From the NCBI RefSeq assembly GCF_900129785.1, contig NZ_FSRC01000001.1, forward strand, positions 620,001 through 684,000: a stretch of DNA of 64,000 nucleotides, written 5' to 3'. The notes below the pieces were generated by a model. That model did no database searches and was not told where the DNA came from. It saw nothing but the letters and a program-made list of their open reading frames with translations. Each line of letters starts with the position of its first letter. The stretch's first letter is position 1. The translations under genes were made by a program, and so were the position numbers. Shown one piece after another: positions 16,542-27,080 of the stretch. The stretch comes from Algoriphagus halophilus (GTDB taxonomy: Bacteria > Bacteroidota > Bacteroidia > Cytophagales > Cyclobacteriaceae).

Positions 16542-16827
16542 TGGATTTGGATTATAAGTTAATACTCAAATATACCCACTTCACGGACAAAAAGCTGGGC
16601 TAAAATCCGTCAAAAAAAGGAGAGTTTGCGACAAGGGGGAGAAGGGACTGCAATGACTAAACTGTGTTTCAATACAATTTAGCTCATGATGGACTTTCAT
16701 TTATTTAGCGCCAAAGGGTAGCCATCATACCGGGCCTTAGAAGTGTTTTTCTTCCAAATTAGCATATTCAGAATTTGGAGCAATAAACTTTCAAGCTCTC
16801 ATTTCCGCTCGGTTGGGGCTAGCTGAT

Positions 16828-16837
16828 GTTGTATACC
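16828..16837 (-). other. Cassette 3' boundary (R''-like half site), left end of the array
   Basis: Plus-strand GTTGTATACC, 3 bp beyond the stop of the interrupted gene. It is complementary (9 of 10) to GGTGTACAAC at 17331-17340 before that gene's start, the end-matching expected of an integron cassette. No partner hairpin arm is found to its left, so the array seems to be truncated here. Confidence 0.5.
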
Positions 16838-16840
16838 GTT

Positions 16841-17323
16841 TTAATCAATATTTTTGTACCAAGGCACAAATTTCTTTTTGGCGAAAAGTCCCCTTTCTTT
16901 TTTCTTTTTGAGTTTACCATTCGCATTAAACTCATATAGTCTTTCCTTTTTGAAGAACAGTTTCTTTGGTACGTAATCAGGCGGTAATTGTCCTCCACTA
17001 GTAATATTGTCTATTGCAAACTGTTCATCTGATACTCGCTCGGTTGTCTTATTTAACGAACGCACTAGTGAATCAGGCTCACCCTTTCTTATCAATGTGT
17101 CCATTACCAGGGTTGGAGTAAGAATGATTGTATCACCTTTCATCTTCCAGTCATCAATTGACCATCCTGATGGCAAATCAAATTGATATTTGAACTCAAA
17201 AGTTGAATCACTGAAAAGCTCTATCTGATACCCGAAATTATCTTTTTAATTACCTGGAATGGATGTTTGAGCATCAACAAGGCTATATTGAAATAAAAAA
17301 TATAATAATATAGCTTTCTTCAT
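16841..17323 (-). pseudogene. Secreted hypothetical protein interrupted by an in-frame stop
   Basis: Read from ATG-17323 the frame gives a signal peptide (MKKAILLYFLFQYSLVDAQ), then TAA at codon 26 (17246-17248), then continues unbroken for 134 codons to the stop at 16841: 'KDNFGYQIELFSDSTFEF...WSIDDWKMKGDTIILTP', ending in a basic 'KKKKERGLFAKKKFVPWYKNID'. The frame is the same on both sides of the stop, so a single base change explains it (a tyrosine codon TAC or TAT would restore it). The intact product would be about 160 residues, exported and of unknown function, of the kind commonly carried in Bacteroidota accessory regions. A sequencing error is possible. Confidence 0.65.
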
Positions 17324-17330
17324 TTTGAAA

Positions 17331-17470
17331 GGTGTACAACGGCGTTCCTGGCTATGGCTAGTGCGGCATTTTGAAAACGTTCCGTCCTCGCCAGCAGGAT
17401 GGTTGTTGAAAGTACAAAATATCATTTTTTAGTTTCAAAGCTAGCATTAGCTATAGGCGATGTTGTGCCT
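17331..17470 (-). repeat. attC-like recombination site between the interrupted cassette and the Fic cassette
   Basis: A 140-bp imperfect inverted repeat. Outer ends are ACAAC (17336-17340) and GTTGT (17462-17466); inner arms pair 'ggctatggctagtgcgg' near 17355 with 'agctagcattagctatag' near 17440, then 'tttgaaa' with 'tttcaaa'. Arms carry unpaired extra bases, as in attC sites. Its right end (GTTGTGCCT) is complementary to the start of the Fic cassette and its left end to the far end of the interrupted cassette. Confidence 0.6.
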
Positions 17471-17479
17471 TCGTGCTTT

Positions 17480-18562
17480 TTAATTTTCAAGTATGTTCAT
17501 TAATTTCTTATTCAGATATAATTTTTCTTTACCGACTCTTATGGATGTTAGAAATCCTTCTTCTTCTAAGGCCATTAGATAGTTTCCGACTGTTTTTGGT
17601 GTTCCTAGGTCCATATCAATTAGGTTTTGTCTTTTAGTATAAGGCAGTTTGAAAATGACTTCAACTAAATCTTTGGAGTAAACTTTAGGAAGCTTTTCTT
17701 TTATTTCTAGTCCTGTTATTTCCATAAGTTGAATTATGGATTCTAATCTATTTAACCCTTTTATAGCAGTTTTTTCTACCATATCCAGCATGTATAGAAT
17801 AAAATTCGACCAATTATTTTTCTCGGTTATCGCCTTTAAACCTTTGTAGTATTTGTCTTTATTCTCTATGATGTACTCACTTAAGAAAAGGGCAGGGATG
17901 TCAAGTAGTTGCTCTAGTTTTAGCTGAAGTAAAAGAAGAATACGACCTGTTCTTCCATTACCGTCCGAAAAAGGGTGTATGGCTTCAAATTGGTAATGTG
18001 AAATGGCCATTTTAATTAGTGGGTCTAACGTATGATTTTCATTGATGAAAGCTTCAAGATTTGCCATTTTTTCTCGAATTACCTCTTCACCTGATGGTGG
18101 TGTGTAGATAATATCGCCTTTTGAATTAGAGAGAGTCGTTCCAGGAGTTGTTCTTATTCCAGCTGTATTTTGTTTGATACATTGAACAATTTCGATACAA
18201 AGGTTTGTTGTGATAAAAGGTTTTTCCTCAAGTCTTTTAAAACCTAACCAAATAGCTTCTTTGTAACTAATTACTTCCTTTGTAGCTGGGTTGTCGAATT
18301 TTTTATCTGCCACAACGGCTTGATACAAGTCGTCATTTGTTGTTACGATATTCTCAATTTCAGAACTAGCTTTTGCTTCCTGCAAATGAAGAGTGTCTAG
18401 AAATAAACTAGGATTAGGTAGGTTTCTTATTGCGCCATTTAATTGAGCTAAAGCCCTACTGGCTTTGATTGTTTTTGTAAGAATTTCTTTAGTTTCTAGA
18501 TCTGCTGTTGGTGGGAGTAGAGGCAGATTGTTAAATGGTTTGGCTTTATCGAAGCTGTTCAT
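17480..18562 (-). CDS. Fic family protein (AMPylase) with N-terminal inhibitory helix
   Basis: 360 residues. Catalytic Fic motif HPFSDGNGRTGR at 196-207 with His196; Fic enzymes transfer AMP (or other nucleotide moieties) to target hydroxyl groups. An inhibitory motif of the (S/T)xxxE(G/N) type is visible at 66-71 (SSEIEN, Glu70), marking a self-restrained class II Fic protein. A winged-helix-like C-terminus (about 290-355, 'DLGTPKTVGNYLMALEEEGFL') may bind DNA or targets. A separate antitoxin is absent, consistent with self-inhibition. It is the only gene between matching cassette ends at 17462-17470 and 18669-18677. Confidence 0.92.
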   Translation of the reverse strand: MNSFDKAKPFNNLPLLPPTADLETKEILTKTIKASRALAQLNGAIRNLPNPSLFLDTLHLQEAKASSEIENIVTTNDDLYQAVVADKKFDNPATKEVISYKEAIWLGFKRLEEKPFITTNLCIEIVQCIKQNTAGIRTTPGTTLSNSKGDIIYTPPSGEEVIREKMANLEAFINENHTLDPLIKMAISHYQFEAIHPFSDGNGRTGRILLLLQLKLEQLLDIPALFLSEYIIENKDKYYKGLKAITEKNNWSNFILYMLDMVEKTAIKGLNRLESIIQLMEITGLEIKEKLPKVYSKDLVEVIFKLPYTKRQNLIDMDLGTPKTVGNYLMALEEEGFLTSIRVGKEKLYLNKKLMNILEN

Positions 18563-18668
18563 AATCGAGAGTAATTTTTACACCTGTATTTTATTCAGAG
18601 GTAAAAATAATCAAAAATTACTCTCGTATTGTTTTGAGAAGTAAGTTTTACTCTTGTTTTTTTGCATG

Positions 18669-18677
18669 AGGCACAAC
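18669..18677 (-). other. Cassette 5' boundary upstream of fic
   Basis: Plus-strand AGGCACAAC, exact reverse complement of GTTGTGCCT at 17462-17470 on the other side of the Fic gene. On the minus strand this reads as the R'-type end of a cassette. A possible partner half (CCACAAC on the minus strand) lies near 18755, but its arms pair poorly. Confidence 0.5.
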
Positions 18678-19039
18678 GATTGTATATACCTAACTCTAAT
18701 TCTCTATTATTTAAACATTTCTGTGCACAGGAATATTCGGAGTTGTGGAAACTAAATTAAGGATTTCGGTGATTTCCGCTCCACCTCTTTAAATTTTTCT
18801 TTGAAAATTTGAAATGGACCTCATGTTGCTTTCACTTGTTGCAAATACTTAACGATGGGTAGGCATTGATTAATTGTAAAAGGCTTATAGTTCCTGGCTT
18901 TGTTTATACTTCTCATAAACCAACGTACCAGAAGTCCCATATGAAGCTATTTTGAAAAATATTTCTTCCATTTATTCTCTTGTTTCACTATGGAGTGAAC
19001 TCTTAGGAGAGTCGGAGCAAACATGCAACAACCATAACC
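18678..19039. other. Gene-free gap
   Basis: 362 bp, AT-rich, no convincing reading frame, promoter consensus or terminator. It holds only the weak half hairpin next to the Fic cassette start and probably represents decayed cassette or island DNA. Confidence 0.4.
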
Positions 19040-19351
19040 TTAATTGTTTTTTGTTGAGGATTCTTGAGACTGGCTTTTGGGAGTAATGGAGTGGGGGCAA
19101 TCTTGTTTCTGAAAGGAAGAACGAAAAGAAATAGAGCCTTGATGAATATGACTTGCCAGCAGTTCAAAAAAGTACTGCCTATTGCTCACGTCTAGGTGGG
19201 TTTGATCTCGTTGTGAAAGTTCCAGCATCCAACACTGGTACATTTCCCAGAGGTAGAGGTGGATGTCCTGGTCGCTGTAGTAATCGAACAAAGCATTTTC
19301 TAGATGGTCTAGTGGAATATGCATGGGATCATGTATTTTGATGTTCTTCAA
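19040..19351 (-). CDS. Small hypothetical protein
   Basis: 103 residues, no signal peptide, acidic/aromatic helical first part ('LDHLENALFDYYSDQDIHLYLWEMYQCWMLELSQRD') and a basic, low-complexity tail ('KSQSQESSTKNN'). The first 60 residues read like a real, helical protein of a kind common in Bacteroidota; I cannot name a family. It is not within a matched cassette pair. The facing 19352-19640 gap (289 bp) holds nothing recognised. Confidence 0.55.
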   Translation of the reverse strand: MKNIKIHDPMHIPLDHLENALFDYYSDQDIHLYLWEMYQCWMLELSQRDQTHLDVSNRQYFFELLASHIHQGSISFRSSFQKQDCPHSITPKSQSQESSTKNN

Positions 19352-19640
19352 ATTATTGAAAGATGTTGGGCTATGGTATTCTTGGATTAGGTGTTTTAGC
19401 TAAGAATTGGAATAAATTATTCGTTGTCCTAAAACAAAAAAATATTGCCGATAAAGAAGGATTTACCGGGAAACTTAAGGAGGAGGAGCAATCCTAATAA
19501 ACAAAGCCATCTTAGATGAGAAAGCAGACAATAAATGTCTGGAATTAGGTTTCCAAACTTGATTAAATCAGGTAAACAGAATAATTTAGTTAAAACTCTT
19601 TCGGAAGAATTCCTTAATTTCCCAATCTAAACTGTACAGC

Positions 19641-20045
19641 ATGAACGAGAAGATCCACCACGGCAGAAATATCAAGCGTTTTCGGGAAATGATGGGCATC
19701 AAGCAAGAGGCTTTAGCCCATGAACTGGGAGATGACTGGTCCCAGAAGAAAATCAGCTTGCTGGAACAAAAAGAAGAAGTGGAGGATGATTTACTTCGCC
19801 AAGTGGCAGCAATTTTAAAAGTACCTGCTGAGGCGATTAAGAGTTTTAATGAGGAAACCGCGATTAATTTTTTTAACTCTTCTTTTAATGGACAATTTAG
19901 CGGGGTGAATTACCATACTACATTTAATGTTAACCCTATAGAGAAATGGGTTGAAGCACTGGAAGAAAATAAAAAACTCTATGAGCGACTTTTGGAAGCG
20001 GAAAGAGAGAAAGTGGAGATTTTAAAGAAGGTGTTGGAGAAGTAA
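19641..20045 (+). CDS. XRE-type helix-turn-helix protein with C-terminal coiled coil
   Basis: 134 residues. HTH about 8-65 ('NIKRFREMMGIKQEALAHELGDDWSQKKISLLEQ'), then a linker and a charged coiled coil ('NPIEKWVEALEENKKLYERLLEAEREKVEILKKVLEK') probably for dimerisation. This is a frequent Bacteroidota small regulator. It is the only plus-strand gene in the island. The first copy of the 126-bp folded repeat begins 30 bp after its stop. Confidence 0.85.
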   Translation: MNEKIHHGRNIKRFREMMGIKQEALAHELGDDWSQKKISLLEQKEEVEDDLLRQVAAILKVPAEAIKSFNEETAINFFNSSFNGQFSGVNYHTTFNVNPIEKWVEALEENKKLYERLLEAEREKVEILKKVLEK

Positions 20046-20075
20046 ACAGCATCAGATTTATTTAAATGTAAGTGC

Positions 20076-20201
20076 GTAATGTCGGGGCTATGCACCGTTT
20101 CAATGGCTGTATAGCCATTGTTGAGAAGCCGCCCCGAAGGGCGGTTTCCAAACGGTGTGGAGTCCCGACATTGAGAAACGACCGAAGGGATGTTTCTCAA
20201 T
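20076..20201 (+). repeat. 126-bp folded direct repeat, copy 1
   Basis: 125 of 126 bases identical to 25489-25614, same orientation (the one difference is a T at about 20163 for C). It folds on itself: an outer 12-bp stem (AATGTCGGGGCT with AGtCCCGACATT), an inner CACCGTTT/AAACGGTG stem, a self-pairing AATGGCTGTATAGCCATT, a GCCGCCC/GGGCGG hairpin and a flanking TTGAGAAAC/GTTTCTCAA hairpin. Near-identity at 5.4 kb distance indicates recent duplication or active maintenance. No gene lies in it. Confidence 0.85.
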
Positions 20202-20313
20202 TCCCATGATATAATCCGGTTCGTTTTAAGGATATAACCAAAAAGAATATATCATGGACACCTCGTTTTCTTTAAAAAAACCTGACTCAATCCCCATAAG
20301 AACCTCTCCGGTT

Positions 20314-20375
20314 CCGTGCAACACCGGTTTCATCGTTCGTGCTACGCACGCGACGAAAACCTAGTTGTTGCCAGC
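20314..20375 (-). repeat. Short attC-like site after the GIY-YIG cassette
   Basis: 62-bp imperfect hairpin: 'acaccggtttcatcgttcgt' (20320-20339) pairs with 'gcacgcgacgaaaacctagt' (20346-20365) with bulged bases and a TAC loop; ends are GCAAC (left, plus strand) and GTTGC (20367-20371, right). Size, 3-nt loop, extra-helical bases and AAC/GTT ends fit an integron attC site. Its GTTGCCAGCAGTTA end matches the start of the GIY-YIG cassette at 21297-21310 (13 of 14 complementary). Confidence 0.65.
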
Positions 20376-20377
20376 AG

Positions 20378-21286
20378 TTATTTTATTTCGTTTTGTTCAA
20401 TTTCTTTAATTGATTTTCCATTTTCGTTTTTCCAGACGTTACGGCCATTAACTGAATATCCAAGTATTACAGCCGCTGCAGCAGATGGACTTGAAAAAAG
20501 GTGCTTTTTAGAAAAATACAATTTACCATTTGAATTTTTAGTGATAAACCCTTCTTCAATTAAGGATTCTCTCAAGGCTCCATATCCATAATTTTTGGTT
20601 GGATTATCTGCAACTTCTGAATTTTCCAAAACTACCAACCCTTCATTAGTCTGAATAGCCTTAGCTGTAATACCACTAACATTTAAATTCAGTTCTAGTT
20701 CGTCTTTTTTGTCAGATAATATTTCTTTCGTTTCGTCGATCAATTCTGTTGTCTCAGGAATGTGTTTGACTGAAATAGGATTTTCTAAAAATTTGTGTCC
20801 CAATGTACCAGTCAATAATTTAATATTGGTTAAAAACTCTTCCATTGCATCTCTGTCTGGTAAGGGAAGTCGATTTAGATTAGGGCTATTTCCATTTTTT
20901 AGTCTATACCTTTCCGTCTGTCTTGCAATTTCCACAATTCTACTCTCAAGATATTTAATATGAGATTTGGTTAAGTTGTCATCTTTACTTGTAAATACTA
21001 TTACTTCATTCCAAAAGTCCTTTTTCAAATCGTGATTTTTCAATCTATCCCAGACATTTTCTGCTTCTCCGATATAAACCATTGGTTTTAAAGTGTCCTG
21101 TTCGTAACCGATTAAAAAATATACACCTTGAGTATTAATGGCAATCGCAAAGTGCTTGTTTAAATCCGATATTTTAGTTCTTGGGCAAGAAAGGGATTGA
21201 ATTGTATGATTAACGAGTTCAGCAAACTTAATTCCAGTTACGCTTCCTTCTTTTAAATAAATTCTAATGCTTTTTCCTAATATCAT
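20378..21286 (-). CDS. GIY-YIG nuclease-fold protein with DUF4357 C-terminal domain
   Basis: 302 residues. GIY-YIG core at about 46-140: 'GVYFLIG' (54-60), 'YIGEAENVWDRL' (71-82, Arg81) and the conserved Glu in 'KYLESRIVE' (Glu114). The C-terminal part (about 200-290, 'AKAIQTNEGLVVLENSEVA...GYSVNGRNVWKN') resembles DUF4357, a domain often found near restriction-modification or other defence genes. It may nick or cut DNA, but the target is unknown. Sole gene of a cassette with 13/14 matched ends; its stop is 3 bp from the attC-like site. Confidence 0.9.
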   Translation of the reverse strand: MILGKSIRIYLKEGSVTGIKFAELVNHTIQSLSCPRTKISDLNKHFAIAINTQGVYFLIGYEQDTLKPMVYIGEAENVWDRLKNHDLKKDFWNEVIVFTSKDDNLTKSHIKYLESRIVEIARQTERYRLKNGNSPNLNRLPLPDRDAMEEFLTNIKLLTGTLGHKFLENPISVKHIPETTELIDETKEILSDKKDELELNLNVSGITAKAIQTNEGLVVLENSEVADNPTKNYGYGALRESLIEEGFITKNSNGKLYFSKKHLFSSPSAAAAVILGYSVNGRNVWKNENGKSIKEIEQNEIK

Positions 21287-21296
21287 TGGTCGGTTT

Positions 21297-21435
21297 TAAT
21301 TGCTGGCAACGGTTGGTGTATGAAGCGTTGGGCATTTCGAAGCACTTTCCTGTCAAGCCGCTACAAATTTTATTAAATGTAACGACCTTGAAATTAGTAC
21401 TATCCGCCCAATGATTTATACACTTTGTTACCGTT
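21297..21435 (-). repeat. attC-like site between the GIY-YIG and ATPase cassettes
   Basis: 139-bp imperfect inverted repeat: GTGTAT (near 21316) with ATACAC (near 21419), GTTGGGC with GCCCAAT, ATTTCGAAG with GAAAT. Outer ends are GGCAAC (21305-21310) and GTTACC (21427-21432). The left end matches the far end of the GIY-YIG cassette and the right end matches AACGGTAA at 25485-25492 before the ATPase gene. The 142 bp between this site and the coiled-coil gene hold no gene. Confidence 0.6.
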
Positions 21436-21577
21436 TCGTTGTTTTTTTCTTCCTCGCACTGGCAGGGCAAGCTCTTTTGCAATTTTGGATTTCAGAGTTG
21501 GCTTGTGTGAATTGCAAATGTGCTTGGCTGTGTGCAATGAGTTCACCTTTTTTGTGTATAATATTTGAAAATAGTAT

Positions 21578-22954
21578 CTAATTTTTCAAGTTGACAATCA
21601 AATCTTCTAAACTTGTCATATTAGATTTGAACTTTTCAATTGACCATTCAGCTTCTAAAGAACCATTTACAGAAATAATAAATCCCGTGATATTTTCAAT
21701 AGAAGTATGGTCGATGAAATCAAATTTTGAAATTGAATACAAACTAATTATAAGTTCTTGAAAACTATCAACCACAATATTATGGTTAAAACTATCAGCA
21801 CATTCTTTCATGCTTTTATGAACACTTTCGAGTGTTTTTACTAAATACCCTTTTTTATCTGTCACATGAATTAGCCTTGAAGAATCAATGTTTTTTAATT
21901 TACTTATAGAATTTGTTGTAATCAATAAGTTGTCAATTGATTTGCTATTTTTAATAGCTTCTTCAGATTTACTAAGAGCTTCATTTGCATTGCCTTTGGC
22001 TTGCCTAGCATCTTCTTTTGCAGCTGAAGAGTTTATTAATGCTTCTGAAATATTTTCTTCCAAAGCTTTCGCTTTCGCATCAATTTCATCAACTTTTAAC
22101 AAGATTGGCTCTGCATCGTCAATTCTTTTTTTAGCTTCCTTTGCTGTTTGGGAAGCTGCATCACTATCCTTTTTAGCAGAAATGGCACCTTCCTTTGCTT
22201 TATTTGATTCAAATATTGCAGTATTAATATTTCCTTCAAGGGTTGTTAATTTGGATTCTATTCCATCTACTTTGTCTAATGTTGGCTTTGCCGCATCAAT
22301 TTTGTTTTCTGCTTTTTCTGCTTTTGAAATCGCACTTTCCAGCTCCTTGTCAATATTTTTTGATGTTTGATAATTAAGTAGAATTGGAATAAAAATCCCC
22401 AAAAATCCAATCACCCCAATCCAAATACTCACCCACATATTTAATCTGTCGATGCTTTCAGATATTTCGTCTTTGGTTTCACGAACTGCTTTGTCAACTT
22501 GATTTGTTAAAAAGAGGGTGTTTTGTTTTAATTCTGATAATTGCTTTTCCGTTAGCCTATAGGTTCCGTCTTTTTCTTTATTTGTAGGGAAAAGAAAATA
22601 GGGTGCTGGAATAATTTTATTACTTACAGTTGAATCAGCTTGAATATATTTATCAAGCAAAACATTCTTTAAATAAGCGATAAGCGAATCTTTTATCTCT
22701 GATTTAGTAATTGTGTCGAATGATATAATGAATGTTTCAGGAATAATAATATCATTTTCAACATGAAACTTTATTGATTTTAGTACTACTTCCGATATTT
22801 TATTATCCTTTTCCTCTAAAATTCTATTTACCCTGACATCTCTTAGCATCCAAAATGCTACAGATAAAACTATGATTAGAAATATCCAACCAGTTAAGCG
22901 TAGCCAAACAGGTGTTTTATTTGACTTATGAGTCATATCTTCTTGTACTGCCAT
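21578..22954 (-). CDS. Two-TM membrane protein with long duplicated coiled coil
   Basis: 458 residues. TM1 about 18-38, a roughly 130-residue extracytoplasmic domain (about 40-168), TM2 about 172-194, then a cytoplasmic coiled coil (about 196-345) rich in Ala/Glu/Lys/Asp. The coiled coil is a tandem duplication: 'KIDAAKPTLDKVDGIESK' is echoed about 60 residues later by 'RIDDAEPILLKVDEIDAK', each followed by an Ala/Lys-rich stretch. The C-terminal 110 residues are globular. I recognise no family. Its gene starts 2 bp after the stop of the upstream ATPase gene, so the two are coupled and probably work as one complex, the ATPase in the cytoplasm and this protein at the membrane. Confidence 0.8.
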   Translation of the reverse strand: MAVQEDMTHKSNKTPVWLRLTGWIFLIIVLSVAFWMLRDVRVNRILEEKDNKISEVVLKSIKFHVENDIIIPETFIISFDTITKSEIKDSLIAYLKNVLLDKYIQADSTVSNKIIPAPYFLFPTNKEKDGTYRLTEKQLSELKQNTLFLTNQVDKAVRETKDEISESIDRLNMWVSIWIGVIGFLGIFIPILLNYQTSKNIDKELESAISKAEKAENKIDAAKPTLDKVDGIESKLTTLEGNINTAIFESNKAKEGAISAKKDSDAASQTAKEAKKRIDDAEPILLKVDEIDAKAKALEENISEALINSSAAKEDARQAKGNANEALSKSEEAIKNSKSIDNLLITTNSISKLKNIDSSRLIHVTDKKGYLVKTLESVHKSMKECADSFNHNIVVDSFQELIISLYSISKFDFIDHTSIENITGFIISVNGSLEAEWSIEKFKSNMTSLEDLIVNLKN

Positions 22955-22956
22955 TG

Positions 22957-25365
22957 TTAATAAAATTTATTATATATTTTTTGGGGCAAATATGTTGGTA
23001 TTTTATAAATGATATTTAGATAATCATTTTTCTCTTTTGAGTCAAAATGTGGGAAGAGTCGAGAAAAAGAAATGTCATTTACTTGATTTTCAGCTGCAGC
23101 ATTTATAGCACTTTCGAAAACTAATTCATCGTGTGTAAATAATATCAATTGTAAAGGTAAGTTCGGGGTAAAATCCTCGAAGATTTTAAACAGACTTTTG
23201 ATAAAATTCTGAACTGTCGTTTTGTTCTTAAAATCACTTGCATAGAAAATATCATCCAGAACTAATGGCAAATTAATTCCTGTGTTTATTCTTGATGCTA
23301 TGGCAATGCTAATACCTACCATTGTAGAGAATAGCCTGTAATGAAATGTATTAAGATATTTTTTTACAGGAAGAGGTTGAATGGTCTTATCTTTTGGAAT
23401 TGCATAAGCAGTGATGATTTCAGAAAGTACTTCACCTGTTTCTTCATCAACAGTTTCTGGTCTTTTACTTATTTCAATATGGACATCTCTGTTATCCATT
23501 GTGGTAAAATAGTATTCAAGTATTTCCTCTACAATCAGTTTTATTGGAGCAAAAGCTTTTTCAACCTCGTTATTTAATTTCTTGTGATAAAATTCCAAAT
23601 AAGCAGCTGTCTCACTTTTAATAGTATCAAATCTTGCCAATTCTTGTTGGAGTGACATAATTTCAGATTCGTTTTTTACAATGTCTTTTTCAAAATTTAC
23701 AATTTTAATGTTTAAATCATGAATGTCTTTCTTTAGTTCAATAGATTGTTCTGAGATGGATTGATTCTGAGATTTTTCAGAAATTTTCTTTTCAATGTTT
23801 GAAATAATTACATTTCTTCTTTCAAACAAGGCAGGAATATCATTCACTACATAATTGAAAAGTTGATTGTTAATAAAATCTGTATTTGACTTTAGATAAT
23901 TGAAAAGAAAACTGAATTTATCTTTAATATAATTTGGATTCTCTTCCAGATTTTGACCTTCTGAGAACATATCACTACCAACTAAACTTGAAATATTACT
24001 TAAGAACTTATTTTCAATTTCAAGAAGTTCAAGAAAATCTACTTTATCCTTAAGCGTTTTAGTTTCTTCATTTATTTTATTTCTAGCTAAATTTATTTGA
24101 TTAATTAAATTGCTCAGTTGTTCCGTTATTTGATTAAATGAGTTATTTAGCTTTTGAGTTACCTTATTAAGCGATTCTATTTTCTCTATTCTCGTTTTAA
24201 CATTTAATGAAATTGCATCAATTTCATCTTTTGAGTTTCTGCAAAATGGACAATTTTCTGATTCTTTTAAAAGTTCTAAACCCATTGATAGAAACTGGGA
24301 CTCTTTATAATCACCTTTAACTTTAATAGCAATAAATTCTTTATATGATTCACGGTAGGTTGCAATCTTGAAAATGAAGTCATCAAATTCAAAATTGAAA
24401 GAAAAATAATTTTGTTTTAGGGTATTTAGCATTTCAAATAAATCTCTGACTTTTTTTTCATCATCGTTATTTTTTTGCTTTTTGAGAACAGAATCAAGCA
24501 AATTATTTTTTTCAATTAAAGCTTTTTTTGATGTTTCAATTGATTCTTTAGACGATTTGTTTTCTTTTTGTAGTGCTGTTATTCTTCGGCTTTCAGTTTG
24601 TCGTTTATAATAAATGAAAGATTTTATATTTTTTTCAAATTCCAATAATTCTGTTAACCCTAAGCTTTTTGCAATTGTGTAATGAAATGATTTATCATTT
24701 CCGTTTTCATAATCTAATCTTCCTTTATAATATATATCAAAGTCACTAATGAAGTGAGTATCAGGATTTACTTTCTGTCTTACAATTGAGGGAATACTTT
24801 CTTCATGGATATTGAAAGGTTTAAAATCACTTTGATTTATATTTATTCGACAAATGCTTTCAGAAAAACCATAATTAAAATGGGCTAAATAGTTTTCAAA
24901 CCATTTATCATTATCAATACAATCTTTAAATGTTCTTAATTCTGCCTCACCAACTCTTCTGCAAAATGTATATTCTATTGCTTCGTAAATAGATGATTTA
25001 CCTGAGCCATTTGTTCCAAGTAAAATCATGCTCTGGGGTTCTGCTCGTTCATTGCAGAAGTCAATTCCAAATGGCTTGTTAGATTTTGGAAACCCTCTTA
25101 TAGCCGAAAGCTTAACGTCTTTAATTCGAAAGTCTTTATTCCTATATCTTTCAATTATTTCGGTTTCGTCTGTTTCAATTATTTCAAGTGCTTCCCTTTT
25201 TGTTTCTTTTAGTCTTTCGTAGAAAGGCAAAACATATTCAACGAATTTCTCTTTTTTTGAAATATCAATATTAGAATTTAAAGCAAAAACTAATGAAACT
25301 GTATTTTTCTGCAATTCAGGTTCATTAGCTAGCTCTTTGAGAAATATGTCTTTATTTTTTATCAT
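22957..25365 (-). CDS. SMC/RecF-like AAA ATPase with zinc-hook motif
   Basis: 802 residues from ATG-25365 (an in-frame ATG at 25440 would add 25 basic residues and cannot be excluded). Walker A GTNGSGKSS near residues 117-125; long coiled coils; a Cys-Pro-Phe-Cys hook near 372 ('NCPFCRNSKDE'); Walker B 'LPLVLDDIFYAS' near 699-710 and a switch segment 'LILFTHDELVF'. The layout (head, coil, CxxC hook, coil, head) is that of Rad50/RloC-like ATPases, which dimerise through zinc. No nuclease or HEPN motif is obvious, so the effector may be the coupled membrane protein. Whole cassette is about 4 kb, long for a cassette. A defence role is inferred from context only. Confidence 0.88.
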   Translation of the reverse strand: MIKNKDIFLKELANEPELQKNTVSLVFALNSNIDISKKEKFVEYVLPFYERLKETKREALEIIETDETEIIERYRNKDFRIKDVKLSAIRGFPKSNKPFGIDFCNERAEPQSMILLGTNGSGKSSIYEAIEYTFCRRVGEAELRTFKDCIDNDKWFENYLAHFNYGFSESICRININQSDFKPFNIHEESIPSIVRQKVNPDTHFISDFDIYYKGRLDYENGNDKSFHYTIAKSLGLTELLEFEKNIKSFIYYKRQTESRRITALQKENKSSKESIETSKKALIEKNNLLDSVLKKQKNNDDEKKVRDLFEMLNTLKQNYFSFNFEFDDFIFKIATYRESYKEFIAIKVKGDYKESQFLSMGLELLKESENCPFCRNSKDEIDAISLNVKTRIEKIESLNKVTQKLNNSFNQITEQLSNLINQINLARNKINEETKTLKDKVDFLELLEIENKFLSNISSLVGSDMFSEGQNLEENPNYIKDKFSFLFNYLKSNTDFINNQLFNYVVNDIPALFERRNVIISNIEKKISEKSQNQSISEQSIELKKDIHDLNIKIVNFEKDIVKNESEIMSLQQELARFDTIKSETAAYLEFYHKKLNNEVEKAFAPIKLIVEEILEYYFTTMDNRDVHIEISKRPETVDEETGEVLSEIITAYAIPKDKTIQPLPVKKYLNTFHYRLFSTMVGISIAIASRINTGINLPLVLDDIFYASDFKNKTTVQNFIKSLFKIFEDFTPNLPLQLILFTHDELVFESAINAAAENQVNDISFSRLFPHFDSKEKNDYLNIIYKIPTYLPQKIYNKFY

Positions 25366-25488
25366 TTTATGTGGTTTATATGTGCGTTTGCAAAATTTAG
25401 CTCTTTTGGTTTTTTCAACTTTTGGCTTGTGTGTCGACAAAAACCAAATGTGCTAATTGTGCGCTGGCTGTCTTTTTTACAATGAACG

Positions 25489-25614
25489 GTAATGTCGGGG
25501 CTATGCACCGTTTCAATGGCTGTATAGCCATTGTTGAGAAGCCGCCCCGAAGGGCGGTTTCCAAACGGTGTGGAGCCCCGACATTGAGAAACGACCGAAG
25601 GGATGTTTCTCAAT
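25489..25614 (+). repeat. 126-bp folded direct repeat, copy 2
   Basis: Same as 20076-20201 with one change that restores a perfect 12-bp outer stem (AATGTCGGGGCT 25491-25502 with AGCCCCGACATT 25574-25585). It sits exactly where the GTT end of the attC-like site at 25620-25744 should meet the first bases of the ATPase cassette (AACGGTAA, 25485-25492). It therefore appears inserted at the recombination point between two cassettes. Confidence 0.85.
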
Positions 25615-25619
25615 GTTCC

Positions 25620-25744
25620 CACGCTTGGCGTTCGTGCGGGATTTCGGAGCTCAAAACTGTTAACCCAGCACTAAAGCCCAATTGGAAAACTGAACTTGAA
25701 TGTAAGCACGTCACCCCGCATGACGCCAAACGTGTGTTAGGTGC
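25620..25744 (-). repeat. attC-like site after the octapeptide-repeat cassette
   Basis: Long arms: cacgcttggcgttcgtgcgg (25620-25639) pairs with cccgcatgacgccaaacgtg (25715-25734) with few mismatches and bulges. The right end GTTAGGT (25736-25742) fits the canonical integron core GTTRRRY, and GTTAGGTGC is repeated inverted at 26757-26765. The left core is disrupted by the 126-bp repeat. Confidence 0.65.
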
Positions 25745-25746
25745 TG

Positions 25747-26262
25747 TTATTTTATCTTTTCCCATCTGTCAATTAGGTCTGATTCAATAAGGTTTTTTAC
25801 CGCATGCTTGTCTATTCTTTGTCTTGAATTTTCGCAACCCTGTATTGAACAACTGTCTCCCATAAATCTAATTGGTGTATCACCATGTTTAGTACAGAAT
25901 GCTGTCAAGTCCGAAATAAATGGTCTGTCATAGTTAAAGAAAACACCCCACTTAAATAGAATACCTGTATTTGGATCAGTTGTCTTGTTGAATGATCGAA
26001 GTTTTTGTTGTTTTAAAGAGTAGTATGCTTTTTCCTTTTTGAATATTTTTCTGTACACAAATTTTAGAACCCAATAAGTTACAAGTGCAAGAATAACGTA
26101 AACAACTTCAATTTTTATTTCAAGTATTTTATTAAAGGCTTCTCTAAACGTTACTTTTTCTGTTACGCTCACAAATTTTGTATAGCCAAGAGTAAGCAAA
26201 CCAATAATGCCTACTGAAATAACTTTACTCCAAACTGGGTCTGTCCATATTTTCTTTATCAT
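25747..26262 (-). CDS. Membrane protein with Cys-rich C-terminal domain
   Basis: 171 residues. Two hydrophobic segments (about 13-31 and 50-68), then a soluble domain with four Cys and His spread over 'AFCTKHGDTPIRFMGDSCSIQGCENSRQRIDKH', possibly a metal site. No family recognised. Follows the octapeptide-repeat gene by 22 bp on the same strand and stops 2 bp from the cassette end, so both genes form one cassette and likely one transcript. Confidence 0.7.
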   Translation of the reverse strand: MIKKIWTDPVWSKVISVGIIGLLTLGYTKFVSVTEKVTFREAFNKILEIKIEVVYVILALVTYWVLKFVYRKIFKKEKAYYSLKQQKLRSFNKTTDPNTGILFKWGVFFNYDRPFISDLTAFCTKHGDTPIRFMGDSCSIQGCENSRQRIDKHAVKNLIESDLIDRWEKIK

Positions 26263-26284
26263 ATTTATTCTGTCCGTTGGAAGG

Positions 26285-26701
26285 TTAGCAATTATCTAAA
26301 AAGCCGTGTCTTAACATATATTCAACAATATCGTGCATTCCTCTTTTTTGTAGTTCTGCAATTAATACTCTTGGTGGTGGCCAATTACTCATATAGGGAT
26401 TTGCGTCTGCACCAGTGTAAAGCCCTCCGCCAACACCTTTATAAAGTCCACCGCCAACACCTGTGTAAAGTCCGCCACCAACGCCAGTATAAAGCCCTCC
26501 ACCTACACCTGTGTAAAGTCCACCGCCAACACCTGTATATAATCCACCACCTACACCAGTGTACATTCCACCACCAACGCCTGTATACATTCCACCACCA
26601 ACACCGGTATAAGCACCGCCTCCAACACCAGTATAAAGTCCGCCACCAACGCCAGTGTATAGTCCACCACCGACACCTGTATATCTATTTCTTGGCCACA
26701 T
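26285..26701 (-). CDS. Octapeptide-repeat protein (YTGVGGGx)11
   Basis: 138 residues: MWPRNR, eleven copies of Tyr-Thr-Gly-Val-Gly-Gly-Gly-(Leu/Ala/Met) (one with Lys for Thr), then 'YTGADANPYMSNWPPPRVLIAELQKRGMHDIVEYMLRHGFLDNC'. The repeat is 24 bp at DNA level with many synonymous differences, showing that the peptide is under selection. No signal peptide. I recall similar Tyr-Thr-Gly-Pro-Gly-Gly-Gly proteins in other bacteria, without known function. The NWPPR-like tail is probably the globular part. Confidence 0.75.
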   Translation of the reverse strand: MWPRNRYTGVGGGLYTGVGGGLYTGVGGGAYTGVGGGMYTGVGGGMYTGVGGGLYTGVGGGLYTGVGGGLYTGVGGGLYTGVGGGLYKGVGGGLYTGADANPYMSNWPPPRVLIAELQKRGMHDIVEYMLRHGFLDNC

Positions 26702-27080
26702 ATTTTTTTGTTTTTTAGTTTATTTATTTATGTCTGTTTAGTTGTCCACTATAATTGCACCTAACATCTATATATGCGCATTGCGCATATATCCTTTATA
26801 TTTAAAAGGTGAGATTTGTTTTTTAAGTGTATGTAAATCAGTGGCTTAATAAAACTTATCCGACAATAAATGTTTGTTGTCGTTTGTTGTCGGCTCAATC
26901 CACTTTTTGTCTAATTAAAAAATCAATCACAGTCTTATTAGTTTAGTCGACTAAGAACGTGAAATCAATTCTTTCATACAATACCCAGTACAGGGTATTT
27001 TTTTGGTGAAACTTAGAATGGGTAGTTGGATACCTGAATTGGATATGGATTCGGTTTACTTGATTATAATGGGCCTTTAT
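26702..27080. other. Right end of the island, gene-free
   Basis: 379 bp. Contains the cassette start GCACCTAAC (26757-26765, reverse complement of 25736-25744), a 23-bp near-perfect palindrome with 11-bp arms ending in TGCGCA (26770-26792), a short CCGACAA/TTGTCGG hairpin near 26870-26893, and a terminator-like hairpin at 26980-27004. No gene is evident. The other half of a final attC site is not clearly recognisable. Confidence 0.55.
26980..27004 (+). terminator. Terminator-like hairpin without an upstream gene
   Basis: 7-bp stem AATACCC/GGGTATT (26980-26986, 26993-26999), 6-nt loop and a T run on the plus strand. No plus-strand gene lies upstream, so it may be a remnant of deleted island DNA. 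Confidence 0.5.

Follow-up and report, generated by a model that had tools for sequence, protein, structure and literature searches.

A Putative Integron Cassette Cluster in Algoriphagus halophilus and Its Apparent Link to Integrases without the IntI Insertion

Introduction

Integron integrases (IntI) are defined by an insertion, the additional domain known as I2 or the patch, in the relevant passages of PMC2426708, PMC9668308 and PMC8352920. As a section of PMC7790495 describes, this insertion docks the extrahelical bases of the recombination site, and its deletion leads to loss of function; how I2 and the extrahelical bases coevolved is posed as a chicken-and-egg question in part of PMC4792948. 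According to portions of PMC9668308 and PMC8352920, published surveys and the usual finder recognise integrases by the IntI-specific domain, so that integrases lacking it (patchless) would be passed over. Excerpts of PMC8618304 and PMC9668308 list integrons for Bacteroidota, and a passage of PMC2426708 does the same for intI genes in the Bacteroidetes/Chlorobi group, while part of the IntegronFinder 2.0 paper (PMC9024848) mentions a single complete integron in Bacteroidetes proper, that of Salinibacter. Here we analyze a 64-kb stretch of the Algoriphagus halophilus genome (4.98 Mb in 8 contigs), C1:620001-684000, hereafter the window, in which an earlier note had described an integron-like cassette array. 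With a probability of about 0.87, we read it as a chromosomal integron cassette cluster that has no integrase and belongs to a lineage of Bacteroidia whose Xer/IntI-like integrase carries N-terminal HARP-like modules, lacks the IntI insertion and is encoded 0.4 Mb away beside an array of its own.

attC Sites of the Window Array

A covariance model (R1) of 17 sites, two of them window hairpins, was searched against the whole genome at E <= 1. It gave 14 matches: four in the window array, nine on the same contig at 1,032-1,049 kb, where they fall within or beside a second array, and one on contig C4 (C4:267320-267457, E 0.0019), apart from both arrays. Eight of the 14, including two in the window, are outside the training set. 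By blastn, the window hairpins match assigned attC sites adjoining integrases in other genera (loci L045, L049, and L052) and in the same genus (L047); for the matches to L044, L046, L051, and L054 no assigned attC site was traced. Since R1 finds window sites on which it was not trained and blastn leads to attC sites beside integrases, the large window hairpins are, on the sequence evidence, attC sites, and it is the hairpins, not the words at the cassette ends, that are decisive. The proposal that the hairpins between the units are cassette sites therefore stands for the large ones; the short hairpin at 20314-20375 is absent from the R1 matches. An Rfam scan returned four matches, all under the gathering threshold. 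The large hairpins are imperfect, with AAC/GTT ends and little sequence conservation, as in integrons.

Judged on the R1 matches, the array has the composition of a cluster of attC sites lacking an integrase (CALIN), i.e., at least two attC sites less than 4 kb apart with no integrase near: the matches at 21299, 17329, and 16704 are spaced by less than 4 kb, that at 25603 lies about 4.2 kb from its neighbor, and the nearest candidate integrase is about 0.4 Mb away. No integrase or integrase remnant was found in the 64 kb, in line with the earlier note; matches to PF00589 lie elsewhere, and tblastn with the integrase of this genome gave a best E-value of 4.2. The cluster would be either the remnant of an integron after integrase loss or a set of cassettes placed in trans.

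The five complementary pairs of cassette ends reported earlier were recovered on re-measurement (Table 1), at 16828-16837/17331-17340, 17462-17470/18669-18677, 20367-20380/21297-21310, 21427-21435/25485-25493, and 25736-25744/26757-26765, and all window cassettes share one gene orientation, as claimed. Taken alone, the word pairs are within chance. The region 16700-26900 holds seven pairs that match at 6/6 bases past GTT, where shuffles have a mean of 5.7 (equalled in 31.5% of 200 shuffles), words beginning with A or G form four pairs against a mean of 1.7 (11%), and the longest chain found in the window by the detector applied to relatives is two. When gene flanks of 60 bases were tested, only one of the five window genes had a pair, because the remaining pairs fall outside its reach or pattern. 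Anchored at the hairpins, four of the five words have a partner, where shuffles yield one with a probability of 0.02-0.055 each; the fifth misses its partner because the cassette starts with ATT.

The agreement of the word pairs with chance is what favors taking the hairpins for transcription terminators or REP-like (repetitive extragenic palindromic) repeats between unrelated genes. We regard this explanation as very improbable, as 13 of the 14 R1 matches are confined to two loci of a 5-Mb genome, the arms covary and are matched to their own cassette, and such sites occur 3' of integrases in several genera. For the large hairpins, the R1 matches across the whole genome are taken to refute it.

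Candidate Integrase and Its Array

The candidate integrase, a tyrosine recombinase, is encoded about 0.4 Mb from the window array, at C1:1,049,322-1,050,680 (L010:13320-14681). No protein of the genome passes the IntI model TIGR02249, this recombinase being the nearest (215 bits, cut-off 265); its closest named integrase homologues are from the genus Algoriphagus. An array of 13 cassettes, delimited by eye, begins about 100 bp past the gene (L010:1041-13222). Each cassette start is complementary to its own R'' at 5-8 of 9 bases beyond GTT, against 1-5 of 9 for the R'' of the same hairpin and a mean of 2.7 (maximum 7) for all other pairs. As the match to the own R'' exceeds that within the hairpin, the two halves of a site would belong to one circle, which is the integron signature; the complementarity of a cassette start to its own R'', noted earlier for the window, thus holds for the five window pairs and for these 13 cassettes. 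Only two of the 13 words fit GTTRRRY (by eye), and arrays of canonical IntI used as controls also show GTTATAC and similar words, so the strict core does not separate the two types.

Ten open reading frames (ORFs) of this array were scanned, and four had no Pfam match; the scanned set includes a nucleotidyltransferase, a Gp49/HTH pair and an immunity protein of the WapI type. The array carries toxin-antitoxin-like and immunity genes. Two more R1 matches (C1:1032574-1034135) lie 3-5 kb past the last assigned cassette.

Relatives show where arrays vary. Two congeneric species (G086 and G019) are identical over the 95 bases that run from the stop codon of the integrase through CGTT, after which their first cassettes differ. 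In G107, the stretch past the stop codon is shared by two integrases with two mismatches, again followed by different cassettes. The border of variation is, as read from the sequences, the G/TT point of integrons, the place of the cut itself being deduced from where the sequences diverge. A tyrosine recombinase adjoining an array and a G/TT insertion site are therefore present in this genome and in relatives, outside the window. The two integrases of G107 (L052 and L053, both on contig C1) are 93.6% identical over 1,369 bp and are followed by 10 and 2 chained cassettes, respectively.

The comparison with relatives proposed in the earlier note thus brought out variation beginning at G/TT beside the integrase (G086, G019), while gain or loss of the window units was not seen. 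An empty site was sought by way of the flanking GH43 gene, but this flank is not conserved in the genus: it matched two of 59 genomes, namely the window's own and one with a 30-base match. The DUF4357 gene of cassette c3 has matches in 10 of 148 genomes of the family, its own included; the nine other homologues were all scanned with short flanks and six of them with 12-20 kb. One of them, L136, lies at the edge of a contig within a 7/9 pair GTTGGCATA and may belong to a cassette, another (L146) is weakly enclosed, and the remaining seven are not enclosed.

Integrase Protein

The distance between the KGxxDR and H.LRHSFATH motifs is 74-79 residues in all 39 integrases of this type and 116 in all 11 IntI of the same phylum; it is 81-82 in the two other tyrosine recombinases of the genome, taken as Xer. 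Alignment of the candidate integrase to IntI4 shows the same gap. The IntI-specific additional domain is accordingly absent from 39 of 39 sequences.

HARP is a DNA-structure-binding domain. A profile of nine integrase N-termini, compared with the whole PDB, had as its first match 4o66, the HARP domain of SMARCAL1 (E 5.1e-5), and of 41 sequences, 36 showed HARP-like modules at E 0.06 or better, nine of these 36 being training sequences. With the Pfam HARP family (PF07443), the integrase of this genome reached E 0.13, P0108, P0111, and P0113 were over the cut-off among 10 scanned homologues, and 16 of 40 sequences matched at E 1 or better. Among the matches listed, the HARP fold search placed the XPB N-terminal domain first (E 0.025) and 4o66 at E 0.44, none of these matches being convincing alone.

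In the tree, IntI stands beside L113 (99/97) within the patchless group. Holding together all 39 patchless sequences was not rejected by the approximately unbiased test (p-AU 0.26), nor was holding together the 38 without L113 (p-AU 0.42); as such groupings are not rejected and the branches are long, we make no claim on the root. The spacing count and the tree leave out L051 and L096 (truncated) and L066 (wrong ORF), and the tree also four near-duplicate IntI rows. The L113 integrase is without the insertion and has HARP-like matches (2.1e-5 and 0.0034); four of its seven attC sites have an excess of extra bases and six of the seven have bottom-strand wobbles. L113 may be an intermediate, which would suggest that extrahelical bases can precede I2.

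Structure of the attC Sites

Consensus folding of mixed hairpins was unusable, as the arms misalign, and the arms were therefore compared site by site. The count at an arm length of 26 bases covered 59 distinct sites, drawn from 13 loci and the window, and left out hairpins that scored below 16 or were repeated. In these sites, 79 mismatches become G.T wobbles if the bottom strand folds and one if the top strand does, and 56 of the 59 sites lean to the bottom strand; the 36 sites from canonical IntI arrays have five bottom wobbles and one top wobble, and 5 of the 36 lean bottom. The 5' arm has more extra bases than the opposite arm in 15 of 59 sites, compared with 34 of 36 sites of IntI arrays, i.e., most sites of the present type are without the extrahelical-base excess expected of a folded bottom strand. 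Fisher tests gave 1.8e-16 for the wobbles and 8.5e-12 for the extra bases, the sites within one array not being independent. Arms of 34 bases gave wobbles of 87 to 10 and extra bases of 41 to 26, and in ten further loci, taken at a laxer score, 22 of 27 sites lean bottom. The wobble A falls 15-16 bases past AAC in 52 of 80 cases and 10-12 bases past it in 22, with at least one in 58 of 60 sites. Of 67 sites, predicted DNA folding gives 50 in favor of the bottom strand and 16 in favor of the top. Together, the wobble and extra-base counts indicate that most sites lack the DNA counterpart of the insertion that is missing from the protein. The 67 core-to-core gaps in attC sites of 13 loci form clusters about 32 bases apart (16 gaps of 115-118, 14 of 146-150, and 8 of 178-182 bases).

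In the mechanism that we propose, the attC bottom strand of a cassette would fold into a hairpin, and in the free circle the two ends of one cassette would supply R'' and R'. The integrase would bind the folded attC and exchange one strand at G/TT with attI, just past its own stop codon, or with another attC, whereby cassettes would enter and leave as units. We infer from the sequences that strand exchange takes place, and, since the wobbles are one-sided, that it involves the bottom strand. We give about an even chance to the idea that reading the hairpin has passed to the HARP-like modules. The broader proposal, that Bacteroidia hold a second kind of integron in which HARP-like modules and a bottom-strand T.G wobble some 10 and 15 bases away from the core replace the I2 helix and the extrahelical bases, may be right or wrong with equal probability in our estimate.

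A competing account, possible though rather short of an even bet, keeps the lineage as described and limits the N-terminal modules to binding attI or to oligomerisation, with the catalytic core reading the hairpin as XerCD does with the CTX phage stem. The resemblance of the modules to HARP, seen in most of the sequences, speaks against it. Consistent with it are XerCD, which is without I2, and the CTX stem, which is without extrahelical bases (in part of PMC4792948), as well as the arm-binding domains that a passage of PMC8138268 gives as a common N-terminal addition in the superfamily.

Distribution in Bacteroidia

Of 118 genomes of the family, 82 have an integrase homologue (E 1e-60 or better), as do 143 of 296 in the class; part of these homologues may be plain Xer-like enzymes. 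We chose 41 integrase loci from the match lists, not at random, 28 of which have more than 5 kb downstream. Chains of at least four cassettes were found downstream of the integrase in 14 of these 28 loci, and of at least three in 20, against 1 and 2 of the 41 loci upstream. Among the 14 is L110, whose words are T-rich and which may be spurious. In shuffle controls (10 per locus, 28 loci), four loci reached a chain of four at least once and 18 reached three, so a chain of three is weak evidence at a single locus and chains of at least four are better. At 20 control loci with canonical IntI, chains of at least three were found 5' of intI in 11, nine of them beginning 219-244 bp away, and chains lay 3' of intI in four, two of these beginning within 200 bp. 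In 13 of the 41 loci (L050, L051, L055, L062, L094-L096, L098, L102, L103, L105, L109, and L112) the contig ends less than 5 kb past the integrase, as if arrays break assemblies.

These counts bear on the simplest alternative, that the window holds an ordinary CALIN of a canonical integron whose patch-bearing IntI came and went. The logic of cassettes and of R''/R' would be identical, and canonical IntI does occur in 85 of 296 genomes of the phylum; however, 84 of those 85 are outside the class of the window, which has it in 1 of 296. Moreover, the window hairpins match attC sites beside patchless integrases, and the two that were scored are of the wobble type, which makes the ordinary CALIN improbable. 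The suggestion of a divergent Bacteroidota cassette system is borne out by a patchless integrase with its array in the same genome and by hairpins of the same type next to integrases in other genera.

Gene Content of the Window Cassettes

The features of the window array are given in Table 1.

Table 1. Cassettes, attC sites and other features of the window array (window coordinates, in minus-strand order).
Feature	Position	Strand	Start/own R'' complementarity	Content	Evidence
Cassette c5	25736..26765	-	9/9	Start GTTAGGTGC at 26765, R'' AGCACCTAAC	
c5 ORFs	26285-26701; 25747-26262	-		138 aa, rich in repeats; 171 aa	
attC after c5	25603..25747	-		Large imperfect hairpin	R1 E 2.0e-9, untrained; blastn matches L044, L046, L047
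126-bp unit	25489..25614	-		Own hairpin, ATT/AAT cores	Arms aligned
Cassette c4	21427..25493	-	8/9	Start ATTACCGTT, R'' ..CGGTAAC	
c4 genes	22957-25440; 21578-22954			SMC/AAA-type ATPase, 827 aa; coiled-coil protein, 458 aa	
attC after c4	21299..21438	-			R1 E 4.2e-23 (training-set member); arm score 12; blastn matches attC of L045, L049, L052 and stretch past last R'' of L050
Cassette c3	20367..21310	-	13/14	GIY-YIG/DUF4357 protein, 302 aa (20378-21286)	
Short attC-like hairpin after c3	20314..20380	-			Direct reading
126-bp unit, second copy	20076-20201	-			99% identical to 25489..25614
Stretch without cassette assignment	18678..20075			Plus-strand XRE-like ORF (19641-20045)	HTH_3 E 0.0013, under cut-off
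Cassette c2	17462..18677	-	9/9	SoFic-type protein adenylyltransferase, 360 aa (17480-18562)	
attC after c2	17329..17473	-			R1 E 6.4e-14 (training-set member); arm score 9
Cassette c1	16828..17340	-	9/10	Short ORF, 111 aa from TTG, apparently broken	Direct reading; Pfam: no match
attC after c1, array end	16704..16839	-			R1 E 0.0043, untrained

Several cassettes carry candidate anti-phage genes, as judged from their homologies. First, the c2 protein has the Pfam domains Fic_N, Fic, and SoFic-like_C and matches SoFic in PADLOC (4.2e-111). Second, the c3 protein is the PADLOC candidate PDC-S14 (4.9e-100). Third, the c4 ATPase is LmuB-like in PADLOC (1.3e-8, weak), its Pfam matches to AAA_23/SMC being under the cut-off. 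The 171-aa ORF of c5 has a weak DUF2663 match, also under the cut-off, and the 138-aa ORF has 24-base tandem repeats at 26359-26708. The 126-bp unit, found in two copies in the whole genome, both within the window array, may be a mini-cassette without an ORF. On direct reading, a palindrome at 26770-26792, just ahead of the first cassette start, is similar to the stretch that precedes the first cassettes in L010 and L047.

Comparison with Known Systems

As far as sequence can tell, the parent system is one that works like an integron: it has most of the structural features of integrons and lacks the two tied to recognition by IntI. It looks like an unrecognised integron branch. Among the open-licence PMC matches listed, an integron without I2 or an integrase bearing HARP is undescribed in titles and abstract openings, and an earlier description is possible. 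These natural I2-less integrases, standing beside arrays mostly without extrahelical-base excess, bear on the question of how I2 and the extrahelical bases coevolved.

Like the IntI integrons (class 1 and the sedentary chromosomal ones of Vibrio), the system has tandem cassettes whose start is complementary to their own R'', AAC/GTT cores, attC sites that form imperfect hairpins, a tyrosine recombinase adjoining the array and a border of variation at G/TT. Unlike them, its integrase is without the IntI insertion, has HARP-like modules and is read toward the array, and its attC sites are mostly without an excess of extrahelical bases. Treponema-type integrons, whose integrase is termed intI, are set beside it by description, not by sequence. 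The window array resembles a CALIN in having several attC sites and no integrase match in 64 kb, but these sites are of another structural type. Integration of the XerCD/CTX type likewise involves a hairpin substrate without extrahelical bases and a recombinase without I2 (as part of PMC4792948 describes), whereas here a separate recombinase gene has its own array and HARP-like modules. Finally, in contrast to the HARP domain of SMARCAL1, the module is found here in a recombinase and not in a SMARCAL1-type protein.

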